Assembly: GCA_016213325.1 (NCBI GenBank)
Contig: JACRAY010000010.1
Coordinates: 1-64,000, forward strand
From: Burkholderiales bacterium
GTDB taxonomy: Bacteria > Pseudomonadota > Gammaproteobacteria > Burkholderiales > Burkholderiaceae_C
Direction of reading: 5' to 3'
Length of the DNA: 64,000 nt
Both the position numbers and the translations under genes were made by a program. Shown in pieces: positions 34,545 to 41,077 of the stretch (within the stretch, counting starts at the first letter, position 1; every line of letters starts with the position of its first letter). The notes under the pieces are model-generated. The model searched no databases. It saw nothing but the letters and a program-made list of their open reading frames with translations, and had not been told where the DNA came from.

Positions 34545-35264
34545 ATGAACACCTTCGTAAGAGCGCTGGCACTGGCGCTGGTTGCGCTGGCCCAGCAGGC
34601 CCAGGCTGCGCAATTCTCCATCACGCCGGTACGCATCTTCATGACTCCGCGCGATCGGGCGATAGCCGTCACGATCACGAACGAGAGCGCCGAGGAAGTC
34701 GTCATGCAGGCCGACCTGTACCTGTGGAAGCAGAAGCCGGACGGTACCGACGACCTGACGCTGACCGAAGACCTGATCCTGTCGCCGCCGATCCTGAAGC
34801 TCGGGCCCAACGCGCGGCAAGTGGTGCGGCTCGCCCGAATTTCGGCGACCCCGACGGACCGCGAGCTCACCTACCGGCTGATCGTGCGCGAAGTGCCCGA
34901 GGCGAAGCCCACCGAGCGGCTGACCCTGCAGGTCGCACTGGCCTTCTCGCTGCCGATTTTCATCACGCCGCCGAGTGCGAAGCGCTCGCTGCAGTGCAGC
35001 GCCGAGCGCGCGACCTCCGACGCGGTCCGCGTGACCTGCGAAAACTCCGGCCGGGCCTACGCGCAGCTGCGTGGCATCGAGGTGCTCGACAGCAAGGGCA
35101 CCAAGGTCGCGAGCCGCGACCAGGGCGCCTACATCCTGCCTTCCATCAAGCGCGTCTTCGACGTGAAGAGCGTCGCCGGGCGCATCCCGGCCGGGCCGGT
35201 GAAGGTCCAGATGATGCTGGACGACGGCAGCATGCAGGGATTCGATGCCAGCCTGCCAGAATGA
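34545..35264 (+). CDS. Fimbrial periplasmic chaperone
   Basis: FSITPVRIFMTPRDRAIAVTITNESAEEVVMQADLY.. PapD-like. Confidence 0.9.
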   Translation: MNTFVRALALALVALAQQAQAAQFSITPVRIFMTPRDRAIAVTITNESAEEVVMQADLYLWKQKPDGTDDLTLTEDLILSPPILKLGPNARQVVRLARISATPTDRELTYRLIVREVPEAKPTERLTLQVALAFSLPIFITPPSAKRSLQCSAERATSDAVRVTCENSGRAYAQLRGIEVLDSKGTKVASRDQGAYILPSIKRVFDVKSVAGRIPAGPVKVQMMLDDGSMQGFDASLPE

Positions 35265-37627
35265 CCGTTCGCCGCGGACGCACCCTTGTCATGGCCGCAA
35301 CCCTCACTCTCTCCGCGGCACTGGCGCTGGCCCAGTCAGGGCGGCCCGAGGTGCCGGCGTCCGTGGCAACGCAGGACCGCATCCTGCCGCTTGAGGCGAC
35401 CGTCAATGGCGCGCGCGGCGGCTCGTGGCCCTTCGTCGAGCGCCAGGGCGTCCTGTACGTCACGCGCGATGCGCTCGAGGAGTGGCGGCTGCACATCCGT
35501 GGCGACATGCAGCCGATCACCGCCCGCGGCGGCGAGTACTGGCCGCTGAACGGCATCCCGGGCTTCTCGGCAAAGATCAATTACGCCCAGCTCTCGATCG
35601 ACCTGAGCTTCTCCCCGGATGCCTTTTCGGGCACCCAGCTGAAGGTGACGAAGGAGCTCGAGCGGCCCAAGCCCGGCCCCGTGCTGCCCAGCCTGTTCCT
35701 CAACTACGACCTGAACTTCCAGCACTCGCGCTCCTCGAGCCAGGCTTCGCGCGACCTCGGTGCCGTGCTCGAATTCGGGGGCTCCAACGACTGGGGCGTG
35801 GTCACGTCCACGCACGTGGGGCGCAACCTGAGCGGAGGCACCGAAGGCCCGCGTGGCTGGCTGCGGCTGGAAAGCACTTTCACGCGCCACATCCCGGATT
35901 CGCAACTCAGCCTGCGCGCCGGCGACAGCACCACCCGCCAAGGCCTGTGGGGACGCGGCGTGTACTTCGGCGGCCTCCAGCTGGGCAGCAACTACTCCCT
36001 GACCCCGGGGTTCCTCACGCAGCCGCTGCCGCTCTTCACGGGGGTGTCGGCGGCGCCGTCGACCGTGGAGCTGTACATCAACGACCAGCTGCGCAAGGTG
36101 GCCCAGGTGCCGGCCGGGCCCTTCGCCATCGACAACAACGCCCTGGGCTTCACGGGCAGCGGCGAAGCCCGCATCGTGGTGCGCGACATCCTCGGGCGCG
36201 AGGTCGTCATGGTGCAACCGTTCTTCACATCGGCGCACCTGCTGGCGTCCGGGCTCGCAGACTGGTCCGTGGAAGCCGGTGCGGTTCGCGAGAACCTCGG
36301 CACCACGAGCAACGACTACGGACACCGCTTCGCGACCGGGACCTGGCGGCGCGGCATGAACGACAAGCTGACGCTGGAGGCCCGCGGGGAAATCACGCGC
36401 AGCCACCGCACCGCCGGGGCAGGCGCCATCCACGCGCTGCCCTGGGATGCCCTGGTGCGCGGCGCGTACGCCCGCAGCCGGCATGACGCCGCCGGAAGCG
36501 GCCACTACTGGACGCTCGGGCTCGACAAGCAGTGGCTCGTCACGGCGTTCAGCGTGCAGGTGCTGGGCGCCACCCGCGGTTATCGCGAGCTGGGGATGGC
36601 CGCAGACGCCCTGCCGGTCCGGCGGCAGTGGGGCGTGCGCCTGTCCCACACGTTCACGCAAGGCACCCTGGGCCTGGCGGTCGCCCGGCAGGAACGGTTC
36701 GACGTGGAGGCGGTCACCACCCTGAGCGCCAATTACTCGATGCGCATCGGGGCGCGCAGTTCGCTGAACGTCAACCTGAGCCGCGTGCTCGGGCCGTCGC
36801 CGGGAACGTCGGTCGGCATGACCTTGCAGGTTCCGCTGGACGCCACCAGCGTGGCATCGACCATTTTCAGCAGCCACTCGGGCGGCCAGGACCTGTACGC
36901 GACCTACTCGCAATCCTCCACGCCCGAGCAGAGGCTCGGGTGGCGGGTGATGGGCGGCCTGCTGCAGAACAAGGTCCGCAGCGAAGCCGGTGCCGACTAC
37001 TCAGGCCGCTATGGCCGGGTGTTCTCGGACCTGAGCGTGTCGAGCGGCCAGCAGTCGCTGCGGCTGGGCGCCTCAGGTGGCATGGCGATGGCCGCGGGCC
37101 GGGTGTTCCTGGCCCCGCGGCTCGACGAGAGCTTCGCGGTTGCGGAGTTGAAAGGCTATCCAGGTGTAGGCATCGGGCTCGGGTCGAACCCGAGCACGAC
37201 GACAGATGCAGCAGGTATCGCGTTCATCCCGAACCTGAGCCCCTGGCAGACCAACCAGATCCGGCTGGACCCGCGCGACCTGCCGATCTCGGCGGAACTG
37301 GACTCGATCGAGCAGTCCGTGGTGCCGTCGTGGCGCAGCGCAGTGAAGGTGGACTTTCCGGTGCGCAGCGGGCGCGGTGCCTTGCTGCGGCTCGCGCAGG
37401 AGAACGGGGAGCCGATTCCCGCCGGCGCGATCGTGCAGATCGTGGGCGACAAGGAAGAGTTCTATACGGGCCGCCGCGGCGAGGCCTTCGTTACGGGCTT
37501 GCAGACGGCCAACAAGCTGGTGGTGCGCTGGAAAGGCGGCCAGTGCAGCGTCGACGTGACATTGCCGCCGGCCAACGACGACGTGCCGCGCATCGGGCCG
37601 CTCACCTGCCAAAGGAGCGCCCGGTGA
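35261..37627 (+). CDS. Fimbrial outer membrane usher protein
   Basis: Long beta-barrel ORF with PSTVELYINDQLRKVAQVPAGPFAIDN.. plug/usher motifs; ATGA overlap with chaperone. Confidence 0.9.
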   Translation: MTVRRGRTLVMAATLTLSAALALAQSGRPEVPASVATQDRILPLEATVNGARGGSWPFVERQGVLYVTRDALEEWRLHIRGDMQPITARGGEYWPLNGIPGFSAKINYAQLSIDLSFSPDAFSGTQLKVTKELERPKPGPVLPSLFLNYDLNFQHSRSSSQASRDLGAVLEFGGSNDWGVVTSTHVGRNLSGGTEGPRGWLRLESTFTRHIPDSQLSLRAGDSTTRQGLWGRGVYFGGLQLGSNYSLTPGFLTQPLPLFTGVSAAPSTVELYINDQLRKVAQVPAGPFAIDNNALGFTGSGEARIVVRDILGREVVMVQPFFTSAHLLASGLADWSVEAGAVRENLGTTSNDYGHRFATGTWRRGMNDKLTLEARGEITRSHRTAGAGAIHALPWDALVRGAYARSRHDAAGSGHYWTLGLDKQWLVTAFSVQVLGATRGYRELGMAADALPVRRQWGVRLSHTFTQGTLGLAVARQERFDVEAVTTLSANYSMRIGARSSLNVNLSRVLGPSPGTSVGMTLQVPLDATSVASTIFSSHSGGQDLYATYSQSSTPEQRLGWRVMGGLLQNKVRSEAGADYSGRYGRVFSDLSVSSGQQSLRLGASGGMAMAAGRVFLAPRLDESFAVAELKGYPGVGIGLGSNPSTTTDAAGIAFIPNLSPWQTNQIRLDPRDLPISAELDSIEQSVVPSWRSAVKVDFPVRSGRGALLRLAQENGEPIPAGAIVQIVGDKEEFYTGRRGEAFVTGLQTANKLVVRWKGGQCSVDVTLPPANDDVPRIGPLTCQRSAR

Positions 37628-38472
37628 GCACGCTGCTGCGCCTGCTGGCGATGCTGGCCCTGCTGGCAGCCTGGCCATCGGCTCACGCGGCCCTCTCGTG
37701 CGACCCGCCGGTGACGGGCGCCGGGGTCACGATCAACTACGTCAACAACACGACCATGACGGTCCAGTCCACGTTCGACATCACCTGCCGGCGCACGTCG
37801 ACCGGCGACGCCACCACGCTCGATGTCGAATTCGAGATGGACAACGGCCTGTACAACAACGGCACCAACAACCGCGCGCGCCACACCATCACGACCAGCG
37901 CGTTCATCAAGTATGACTTCTACCGGGCGTCCAACTGCGGCAGCAAGTGGAAGGGCAACCAGAAGCTCAGTGCCACCTTCACCTGGGCCGCCGGCACCAC
38001 CGGGCCGCAGACGAAGACCGTTTCCTACTGGGCCTGCATCAACACGGCCCAGGTCGCCGCGGCCGAAGGCCTGCACAGCGACACCGGCCATGTCACAACC
38101 ACCTATGGCACCACAACGCTGGCCGCGGTCGACCTGAACGTCTCGATCTACGCGCCGGCGTACTGCAACCTGACGACCCCGCCGGGCGACATCAGCGTTT
38201 CATACACCGCCTTCGGCGCACAGCAGAGCGGCAGTACCGGCTTCGGGCTCACCTGCACCATCGGCATGACCTACACGATTGCGACGGACGTGACGGAAAG
38301 CCTCCTCACGGGCCTGCGCTACATCCTGAGCACGTCTCCCGCCACGACCGCGGGAACGGGTGCGCTGCAGAACTACTCGATCATCGCCACTTTCCCGGCG
38401 GGCCAGGCCGGCAGTTGCGCAGCGGGCAGCTGCAGCGGCACCAACACCCACACGCTCACCATCACGTACTGA
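37624..38472 (+). CDS. Two-domain SCPU protein, putative tip adhesin
   Basis: Two SCPU-like halves; C-terminal NYSIIATFPAGQAGSC..HTLTITY; GTGA overlap with usher. Confidence 0.85.
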   Translation: MSTLLRLLAMLALLAAWPSAHAALSCDPPVTGAGVTINYVNNTTMTVQSTFDITCRRTSTGDATTLDVEFEMDNGLYNNGTNNRARHTITTSAFIKYDFYRASNCGSKWKGNQKLSATFTWAAGTTGPQTKTVSYWACINTAQVAAAEGLHSDTGHVTTTYGTTTLAAVDLNVSIYAPAYCNLTTPPGDISVSYTAFGAQQSGSTGFGLTCTIGMTYTIATDVTESLLTGLRYILSTSPATTAGTGALQNYSIIATFPAGQAGSCAAGSCSGTNTHTLTITY

Positions 38473-38478
38473 AGCGCC

Positions 38479-39579
38479 TCACCGCGGCAGCGCCTCGACC
38501 TCCTTCGTCCACCGCTCCACCAGCCGCCGCCGCTCGCTGGCCTTGCCGTACTTCTCGAAGTCGTACTTGATCAGGCGCACGCTGTCGATGGCCGGGATGC
38601 GCGGATCGGGCTTGAACATCCGGTTGGCGGGCACCTGCAGGCTGTTCGCCTTCGCGCCGACCTGCTGCCCCGCCGGGCTCATGAGCCAGTCGTAATAGCG
38701 CTTCGCTGCATCGCGGTTGCGCGAGCCTTTCACCAGCGCGATGCCGCCGATCTCGTACGGCGTGCCCTCGCACGGGGCGGCCGAGAACACCGGGAATTTG
38801 TTGGTGACGCGTTCGTTCTCGAAGCCGAAGATGAAGCTCACGCCGATGCCGACCTCGCCCTTGGCGACGCTGCGCGCCTGCGCGGTGCCGCTGCGCGTGT
38901 ATTGCGTGACGTTGCGGTGCAGCTTCTTCAGGTAGTCGAAGGCCTGGTCCTCGCCCATCAGCTGCACCAGCCCGGCGACGATGGTGTAGCCCGTGCCGCT
39001 GGAGCCGGGGTGCGAGGTCTCGATCTCGCCCTTGTAGCGGGCGTCAAGCAGGTCCTTCCAGCACTTCGGCGGCGGCAGCTTCTTCTTGCGCAGCACCTCG
39101 TCGTTCCAGCCGAAGCCGATGGCGCTGGTGTAGAAGCCGCCCACGTAGTTCTGGCTCATGGCGTACTGGCGCACCGCCCAGCCGTGCAGGTCGCCCAGGT
39201 AGTCGGGGCGATAGGCGTCGAGCAGGCCGAATTCGGCGGCCTGGTAGAACGGGTCGCCGGTGCCGCCCCACCAGATGTCGGTCTTGGGGTTGGCCGCTTC
39301 GGCGCGGATCTGCGCCAGCGCCTCGCCAGTCGGCTTGCGCGTCTGCAGCACGCGCACACCCGTGGCCTTGGTGAACTCCTGCGCCGCCAGTTCGCACCAC
39401 GCCTGGTCGGTGCTGCAGATGGCGCTGACGACTTGCTGGGCGTGCGCGCTACCCGGCAACAACAAGAACGCAGAAGTCGCAGAAAAAACACCAAAGACGC
39501 AGAAAAGAACCTTCCTGATGAATCCTTCTGCGTCTTTGGTGTTTTTTCTGCGACTTCTGCGTTCAAGAACCTGAGCCAT
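38479..39579 (-). CDS. ABC transporter substrate-binding protein (iron/putrescine-type)
   Basis: AICSTDQAWCELAAQEFTKATGVRV..WWGGTGDPFYQAA..; N-terminus encoded by an inverted repeat. Confidence 0.85.
   Translation of the reverse strand: MAQVLERRSRRKNTKDAEGFIRKVLFCVFGVFSATSAFLLLPGSAHAQQVVSAICSTDQAWCELAAQEFTKATGVRVLQTRKPTGEALAQIRAEAANPKTDIWWGGTGDPFYQAAEFGLLDAYRPDYLGDLHGWAVRQYAMSQNYVGGFYTSAIGFGWNDEVLRKKKLPPPKCWKDLLDARYKGEIETSHPGSSGTGYTIVAGLVQLMGEDQAFDYLKKLHRNVTQYTRSGTAQARSVAKGEVGIGVSFIFGFENERVTNKFPVFSAAPCEGTPYEIGGIALVKGSRNRDAAKRYYDWLMSPAGQQVGAKANSLQVPANRMFKPDPRIPAIDSVRLIKYDFEKYGKASERRRLVERWTKEVEALPR
39466..39564. repeat. 39-bp perfect inverted repeat (arms 39466-39504 and 39526-39564, 21-bp spacer), REP/MITE-like
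   Basis: GAACGCAGAAGTCGCAGAAAAAACACCAAAGACGCAGAA and its exact reverse complement. Confidence 0.95.
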
Positions 39580-39591
39580 CGTGATCCCCTT

Positions 39592-40359
39592 TCAGAACCG
39601 TTCATGCGGCGCGAGATAGCGCCATTGCCCCACCGGCAACTGTCCCAGCGACACCCGCCCGATGCGAACCCGCTTCAACCCTACCACCTTCAGCCCGGCC
39701 AGCTCGCACATGCGGCGGATCTGGCGCTTGCGGCCTTCGGTCAGCACGAAGCGCAGCTGCTCGGGGTTCTGCCAGTCCACCTGCGCTGTCTTCAGGGGCT
39801 TGCCGTCCAGGCTCAGGCCATGGCGCAGCCGCGCGAGTTGCGACGCCGGGAAGGCCCGCTGCACATCCACCGTGACCGAGCCGAAGGCGACGCGCACCAG
39901 GTATTCCTTTTCGATGCCCGAGTCTTCGCCGACCAGCGTGCGCGCCACGCGCCCGTCCTGCGTCAGCACGAGCAGCCCGGTCGAATCGATGTCCAGCCGG
40001 CCCGCGGGCGCCAGGCCCTTCAGTTGCGCGGGCGAAAAACGCAGCGGCGTCTCATCGCCCTTCCAGCGGTTGCGCGCCTGCACCAGCACCACCGCCGGCT
40101 CATAACCGTCTTCCGCCTGCCCGCTCACGTAACCCACGGGCTTGTGCAGCAGGATGGTCACCTGCTGCTGCTGTTGCCCGCGCGCCTGGCGGTCGACCTC
40201 GATGCGCGCATCCGGCGCCACCTGCTGGCCCATGGTGGCGACCGTGCCGTTCACCTTCACCCAGCCGCGTGCGATCCATTCGTCGGCCTCGCGGCGCGAA
40301 CACAGGCCGAGTTCGGCCATGCGCTTGTTCAGGCGCGAAGTGCTGGCGCCTTCAGGCAT
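39592..40359 (-). CDS. 23S rRNA pseudouridine synthase, RsuA/RluB/RluF family
   Basis: S4 domain [45 protein letters not shown]. Confidence 0.92.
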
Positions 40360-41077
40360 CGGTACGCAAGGACAGGTCGCGGTTGCGCAGCGCATCCTGG
40401 TCGAGGATGCGCAGGCCGCCGTATTCGACGCGGATCAGCCCCTGCGCCTGCAGCGACGCCAGCGCCTCGTTGACGCGCTGCCGCGACAGGCCCACCAGGT
40501 AGGCGAGCTCCTGCTGCGTGATGCGCAGCACCTCGCCGACGCCGGGGTACAGCACGGGGTTGAACAGCGCCGCGAGGCTGCGCGCCACGCGCAGGTCGGG
40601 GTTGTTCATGCGGTCGATCTCGCGCGCCGCGATGAACTGGCCGAGCCGCTCGTTCAGCTGGTTCATGACGAAGCGGTTGAAGCCGATCGAGTGGTCCAGC
40701 AGCCAGTGGAACATGTCGGCCGGCAAGCCGGCGACCACGCTCTTGCGCAACGCCTGCACGTTGTAGCGGTAGATCTCGCGCTTGATGACCGTGCCTTCGC
40801 CGAACCAGCCCCCCGGCGGCAGCCCCGCGAACGTGAGGTGATGACCTTCTTCGTCGTCGGTGCTCATCTTCAGCAGGCCTTCGACCACACCGAACCAGTA
40901 CGTGACGGGCCGCCCGATGCGGCAGACGTAGTCGCCCGGCAGGGCGTCGCCCACCTTGATGTGCGACGACACGCGCTCGCGCTCCTCGGCCTGCAGCGCG
41001 CGCAACCACGGGATGCCGGCAAGCTCCACGGGCGTGGGATCGCGGCGGCGTTGGTGCAGGGACAGTTCGGAGGCCAT
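40352..41077 (-). CDS. Crp/Fnr family transcriptional regulator
   Basis: cNMP-binding fold and C-terminal [35 protein letters not shown]. Confidence 0.9.

Follow-up and report, generated by a model that had tools for sequence, protein, structure and literature searches.

In the genome of a Ramlibacter soil bacterium, a gene for an extracellular solute-binding protein (SBP) carries a palindrome of about 100 bases, in frame and directly 3' of its ATG. This raises the questions of how a repeat came to occupy the place of an export signal and whether the gene still yields an exported protein. We addressed these questions within the 64,000-nucleotide window (the whole stretch of DNA that was analyzed), in the remainder of the genome, and in related bacteria.

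Structure of the inverted repeat

The SBP gene (38479..39579, minus strand) encodes 366 aa, and its product matches SBP_bac_8/6/11/1 in Pfam (PF13416, E 2.5e-22). The upstream gene on the same strand (39592..40395), identified by Pfam and synteny, is RluB-like, with S4 and pseudouridine synthase domains. From its stop codon it is 12 nt to the SBP start and ~28 nt to the palindrome core. A Shine-Dalgarno-like AAGGGGA (39585..39591, minus strand, by sequence reading) adjoins the rluB stop codon and stands 5 nt 5' of the ATG. The first-pass annotation had described exact 39-bp arms with a 21-bp spacer, and the arm comparison bore this out, as positions 39466-39504 and 39526-39564 form two 39-nt arms that are 100% complementary. 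It had also read the minus strand in the binding-protein frame as a basic arm and a hydrophobic arm followed by LLLPGSAHAQQ, and the translation of the open reading frame is identical: MAQVL-ERRSRRKNTKDAE-GFIRKVL-FCVFGVFSATSAF-LLLPGSAHAQQ. In the direction of the gene, the ATG and four further codons (MAQVL, 39565..39579) precede the palindrome, and the place of this ATG is conserved in syntenic orthologs. The purine-rich 5' arm (39526..39564) supplies codons 6-18, ERRSRRKNTKDAE, as a basic n-region; the 21-nt spacer (39505..39525) supplies codons 19-25, GFIRKVL, which end the n-region and start the h-region; and the pyrimidine-rich 3' arm (39466..39504) supplies codons 26-38, FCVFGVFSATSAF, the bulk of the h-region. 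The host-derived remainder, LLLPGSAHA (39439..39465, minus strand), ends at what by eye is a plausible signal peptidase I site between AHA and QQ.

The RNA fold of the region has an energy of -99.9 kcal/mol (z = -7.7), which was matched by 0 of 200 shuffles, indicating that the palindrome is not a product of chance and agreeing with the very stable mRNA hairpin expected near the start. The perfect 39-bp hairpin begins 15 nt past the ATG and could hinder translation or draw RNase III. A T-run sought 3' of the hairpin at this locus was absent. A 523-aa open reading frame at 38902-40473 of the window (plus strand), antisense to the SBP gene and rluB, is open through the palindrome but is probably no gene. 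Beside the SBP gene on the opposite strand (34724-38472 of the window, plus strand), fimbrial usher-like and secreted spore-coat-U-like genes were recognized by eye.

Orthologs and the predicted signal peptide

We searched 58 other Ramlibacter genomes for SBP orthologs and found about two dozen, 73-89% identical and aligning from about residue 33 on. The first-pass annotation had proposed that the repeat was inserted and had named orthologs with the same N-terminus but no repeat copies elsewhere as a finding that would speak against this. Instead, none of the orthologs carries the repeat, and their signal peptides are ordinary, repeat-free, and 19-30 aa long. Seven syntenic orthologs, each immediately behind rluB and with a signal peptide of 19-29 aa, start 9-13 nt past the rluB stop, compared to 12 nt here, indicating that the position of the SBP ATG is ancestral. 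Judged against the orthologs, the palindrome is an insertion into the SBP signal-peptide region, and it now stands between MAQVL and LLLPGSAHA. The insert provides the n- and h-regions of a predicted new signal peptide of ~47 aa. Among the Ramlibacter genomes searched, this insertion is carried by one genome only, which makes the locus a clear before-and-after case of a signal peptide apparently rebuilt from a repeat.

The composition and hydropathy of the new N-terminus are those of a Sec signal peptide, with a basic n-region, a hydrophobic h-region, and small residues at -3 and -1. The best 12-residue mean hydropathy of the h-region is 2.27, versus 1.7-2.8 in the intact orthologous signal peptides. 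The mature SBP is still constrained (dN, 0.06-0.17; dS, 0.37-0.96), and its rate is not raised in this lineage. Apart from the ATG, the only in-frame start ahead of the mature part is a TTG run 3' of the repeat; a product begun there would have about nine residues (MLLPGSAHA or the like) in front of the mature part and would lack an export signal. The SBP gene most likely still yields an exported protein with a remodeled signal peptide of ~47 aa.

A dispersed family of stop-proximal palindromes

The dispersed repeat family suspected earlier was recovered when the genome was searched. The 111-bp region aligned 79 times, at 40 sites of the same genome, and a pattern count returned 178 half-sites, versus 9 with a backward control pattern, corresponding to ~85 elements. 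In the aligned copies, the core GAACGCAGAAGACGCAGAAG ... CTTCTGCGTCTTCTGCGTTC is conserved and the middle parts and loops vary; many copies have a further 20-nt outer flank, AAGACCYAACCGGAGRYCAC. The SBP-gene copy belongs to this family both by its arms, which match GAACGCAGAAGACGCAGAAG...CTTCTGCGTCTTCTGCGTTC, and by its placement, with the core ~28 nt past the rluB stop compared to a family median of 24.5. Of the 40 copies compared, no other shows arms that pair perfectly along 39 nt. On the start-codon side, GTTCTT beside the core at 39565..39579 resembles the outer flank of the family, with ~9 nt fitting the 20-nt flank (p = 0.0047 versus random sequence), and on the opposite side there is no fit (p = 0.11). 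The insertion boundaries at the SBP locus are uncertain because the fit is partial on one side and absent on the other. Full-length outer ends at this locus were rejected, with ~9 nt fitting on one side only.

By gene calls, nearly all of 127 copies in six genomes are intergenic, with a median distance to a stop codon of 24.5 bp; 55 lie between convergent and 66 between codirectional genes, 3 are in a divergent setting, and 3 overlap predicted gene ends. The SBP-gene copy was itself scored as intergenic because the crude codon-usage gene caller places the SBP start after the repeat. In just 1 of the 127 copies, that in the SBP gene, an ATG was found a few codons upstream with a frame that runs on into a conserved mature protein, and none of the other 126 in the six genomes forms a new N-terminus in this arrangement. 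Three copies (L030, L263, and L266) overlap the 3' ends of predicted genes, apparently lengthening or altering their C-termini. At a second locus (L016), where an empty site was sought in relatives, these matched one flank at a time, never both together. Movement, target duplication, and transposition intermediates were not observed. An idealized palindrome found no match in plasmids and phages.

REP sequences are proposed mRNA stabilizers, terminators, or attenuators. The family's position just 3' of stop codons, often between convergent genes, and its strong hairpin would suit a comparable role at the 3' end of rluB, with the palindrome working chiefly at the RNA or DNA level (as stabilizer, terminator, or attenuator) and its coding capacity incidental. 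We consider this quite improbable, as the hairpin lacks a T-run and the SBP gene has no alternative start giving an export signal; moreover, the coding and RNA roles are mutually compatible. The dispersal of palindromes at 3' ends, the genome's two Y1_Tnp genes, and GTAGC-like ends on some outer flanks also recall REP/BIME families moved by a REP-associated tyrosine (Y1) transposase. However, neither Y1_Tnp gene has a palindrome copy nearby, the element forms a single long hairpin where REP families have GTAG-tagged hairpins of 20-40 nt, and the arms of the element flank a GxxExxY gene instead. We hold this origin to be very improbable, and with no element copies flanking either Y1_Tnp gene, a REP/RAYT origin was set aside.

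Signal-like readings of the repeat

We scored the readings of 129 elements (two strands by three frames, 774 readings) as signal-like when a net positive first part was followed by a hydrophobic stretch; the thresholds were our own and were set once. The real elements were signal-like in 285 of 774 readings (37%), or in 48% of the open readings. The corresponding counts were 112 of 3870 (2.9%) for random genomic segments and 55 of 3870 for mononucleotide shuffles. Compared with random genomic DNA, this repeat class encodes signal-like segments about thirteen times as often. The first-pass annotation had held that complementary arms predispose such a repeat to become a signal peptide. The predisposition stood, but complementarity alone did not explain it. 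Random-sequence palindromes were signal-like in 62 of 3870 readings (1.6%); when real arms were shuffled and built into palindromes, 738 of 3870 readings (19%) were. This indicates that a palindrome as such does not create the bias, which stems from a purine-rich 5' arm combined with its complement.

The element readings were open in 600 of 774 cases, and an open frame alone is therefore weak evidence. The insertion could instead have broken the SBP gene, leaving a recent pseudogene or cytoplasmic relic in which the frame is open by luck and the hairpin silences translation or the long n-region goes unrecognized. The stable hairpin and the frequency of open readings are compatible with such a loss, and the perfect arms suggest that the copy is recent or recently corrected. 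However, the mature SBP is intact, constrained, and not fast-evolving, the frame meets the mature protein exactly, the hydropathy of 2.27 is ortholog-like, and the junction of AHA and QQ is a plausible cleavage site. A broken gene is unlikely in our judgment, and retention of a functional, remodeled signal peptide is the reading we prefer.

A GxxExxY nuclease gene between the same arms

One arm pair in this genome, ~490 bp from outer end to outer end, encloses a gene of the GxxExxY family (PF13366, PDDEXK_3; TIGR04256), which belongs to the PD-(D/E)XK nuclease superfamily. This is the genome's only GxxExxY copy (L314/L393, G000:C10:109886-110164). A truncation or frameshift affects it past ~residue 94, and E-I-E stands in the place of E-x-K, so the palindrome family may now be immobile in this genome.

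With an arm call cutoff at the 99th percentile of random flank pairs, a genus-wide search found inverted arms tightly flanking GxxExxY at 18 of 24 Ramlibacter loci. Inverted arms also flank the gene at 24 of 30 loci in other families of the class, and arms are present at two Bacteroidota plasmid copies. Palindrome and gene occur together in 15 genomes, the palindrome only in 2, the gene only in 7, and neither in 35 (Fisher p = 4e-7, a statistic that ignores phylogeny). In five of six genomes, the GxxExxY-side arms resemble the dispersed palindromes of their own genome best. The catalytic D and E-x-K are intact in all armed Ramlibacter copies except that of the present genome (E-I-E, truncated), and the active site is broken in all but one of the five Ramlibacter copies that fully lack arms. 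These four read Q-x-K in place of E-x-K, and their genomes gave no hit in the palindrome search.

Genome G014 provides an independent replicate, as its arms are built of CACAGAGG units and are unlike those of the family in the SBP gene. It contains 60 (29 + 31) dispersed arm matches in inverted pairs, one pair of which surrounds its GxxExxY gene, and these arms had 0 matches in four other genomes. At one of its loci (L432), one palindrome arm is expanded to about eight CACAGAGG units, suggesting growth by unit duplication. In the present genome, in its relatives, and in G014, many short copies have the same inverted ends as a longer element with a gene inside. The palindromes probably represent MITE-like, presumably mobile derivatives of this GxxExxY-carrying element. 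From the anatomy of the loci and these associations, we infer that the nuclease is the mobilizing enzyme, which offers a testable function for an annotated-but-unexplained protein family.

Palindromes of this class at GxxExxY loci were seen in many Gammaproteobacteria families and in Bacteroidota. At L398-L427, L449, and L451, arms of CACAGAGG-, CGCAAAGG-, CGCCAAG-, or CACGGAA-like units surround the gene. A near-perfect CGCAGAGG-type palindrome lies directly 3' of the GxxExxY gene on the megaplasmid of Gemmatirosa kalamazoonensis (Gemmatimonadota; L448). In many Ramlibacter genomes (L374-L397), GxxExxY adjoins the same neighbor, the start of which reads as trpG; the arms of GxxExxY vary from genome to genome and look like the dispersed palindromes of the genome that they are in. 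Relatives of GxxExxY are rare on plasmids (4 records), and none were found in viral contigs. No solved structure matches GxxExxY by sequence, and PADLOC gave weak Cas4 matches only.

The nuclease might also process or tolerate palindromes without mobilizing them, with the arms at its gene arising as insertions or gene conversions from dispersed copies. Many Ramlibacter copies occupy one conserved site beside the trpG-like gene, as if vertically inherited, and the arms and the dispersed copies show concerted evolution, which gene conversion would also produce. We regard this as somewhat unlikely, given the tight inverted arms on both sides of the gene at 24 of 30 loci elsewhere and at the two in Bacteroidota, and the broken active site in four of five fully armless Ramlibacter copies.

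The explanation we favor, and consider reasonably probable on the sequence comparisons, is that a stop-proximal MITE-like copy inserted behind rluB and rebuilt the SBP signal peptide and that its family derives from a GxxExxY element. An element of the multicopy, 3'-end-proximal family would have inserted at the family's usual distance from the stop codon, and because the SBP gene starts only 12 nt past the rluB stop, the insert hit the SBP signal-peptide region. The ancestral ATG and ribosome-binding site would have been retained with the frame open. The purine-rich 5' arm would then have become the basic n-region, the spacer and pyrimidine-rich arm the hydrophobic h-region, and the remnant of the old signal peptide, LLLPGSAHA, the cleavage region. 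The SBP-gene copy would be a side product of the family's spread that replaced most of a signal peptide. The palindromes themselves would be nonautonomous derivatives of an element with the GxxExxY gene between the same arms, spreading possibly through cutting of cruciforms or hairpins by the nuclease. More tentatively, and with confidence falling just short of probable, we suggest that GxxExxY genes are the autonomous partners of widespread, unrecognized mobile palindromes with CACAGAGG-, CGCAAAGG-, or CGCAGAAG-like arms. Being purine-rich, these arms would predispose any in-frame copy to encode a signal peptide, and the class may be a recurrent source of export signals. Abundant palindromes, usually ignored in genome annotation, would thereby gain a candidate origin.

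Comparison with known repeats

In full text, the name GxxExxY was found in only two papers; one of them concerns reverse transcriptases, and its passage on the name does not mention repeats. No paper linking GxxExxY, the TIGR04256/PF13366 (PDDEXK_3) family that includes the gene between the arms, to palindromes was found in the open full-text literature, and within that scope the link may be new. There is one published precedent for a predicted MITE-derived signal peptide: in Yersinia YPO1552, it is derived partly from the ERIC-like MITE RU-2/YPAL (Delihas 2007, PMC2759123). RU-2/YPAL, however, is ~168 bp and apparently unrelated, and the function of its host protein is unassigned (Delihas 2007, PMC2759123). 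Its transfer mechanism was not elucidated and no partner gene was identified there, whereas the Ramlibacter family has a candidate in GxxExxY (PMC2759123). REP/BIME sequences with their RAYT transposases form GTAG-tagged families (PMC3733652) and are likewise palindromes dispersed outside genes, but the Ramlibacter element is a longer single hairpin and is unlinked to Y1 transposase genes.

Rickettsia palindromic elements (Ogata 2000, 2002), as summarized in later papers (PMC10969869, PMC6649704), are ~150-bp palindromes in frame within protein genes, and the palindrome in the SBP gene likewise lies in frame. They are often intragenic, whereas the Ramlibacter family is almost wholly intergenic, occurs in a different lineage, and can be paired with a candidate nuclease. 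The SBP case differs from the known in-frame elements in that its two arms give distinct signal-peptide regions. Coding palindromes are also known from nematomorph mitochondria, where the limits that complementary arms place on hydrophobic and hydrophilic residues have been discussed (PMC6649704). These resemble the SBP-gene repeat as long, perfect inverted repeats inside coding sequence; however, they are mitochondrial and actively maintained across genes, whereas the SBP-gene palindrome is a copy of one dispersed bacterial element.
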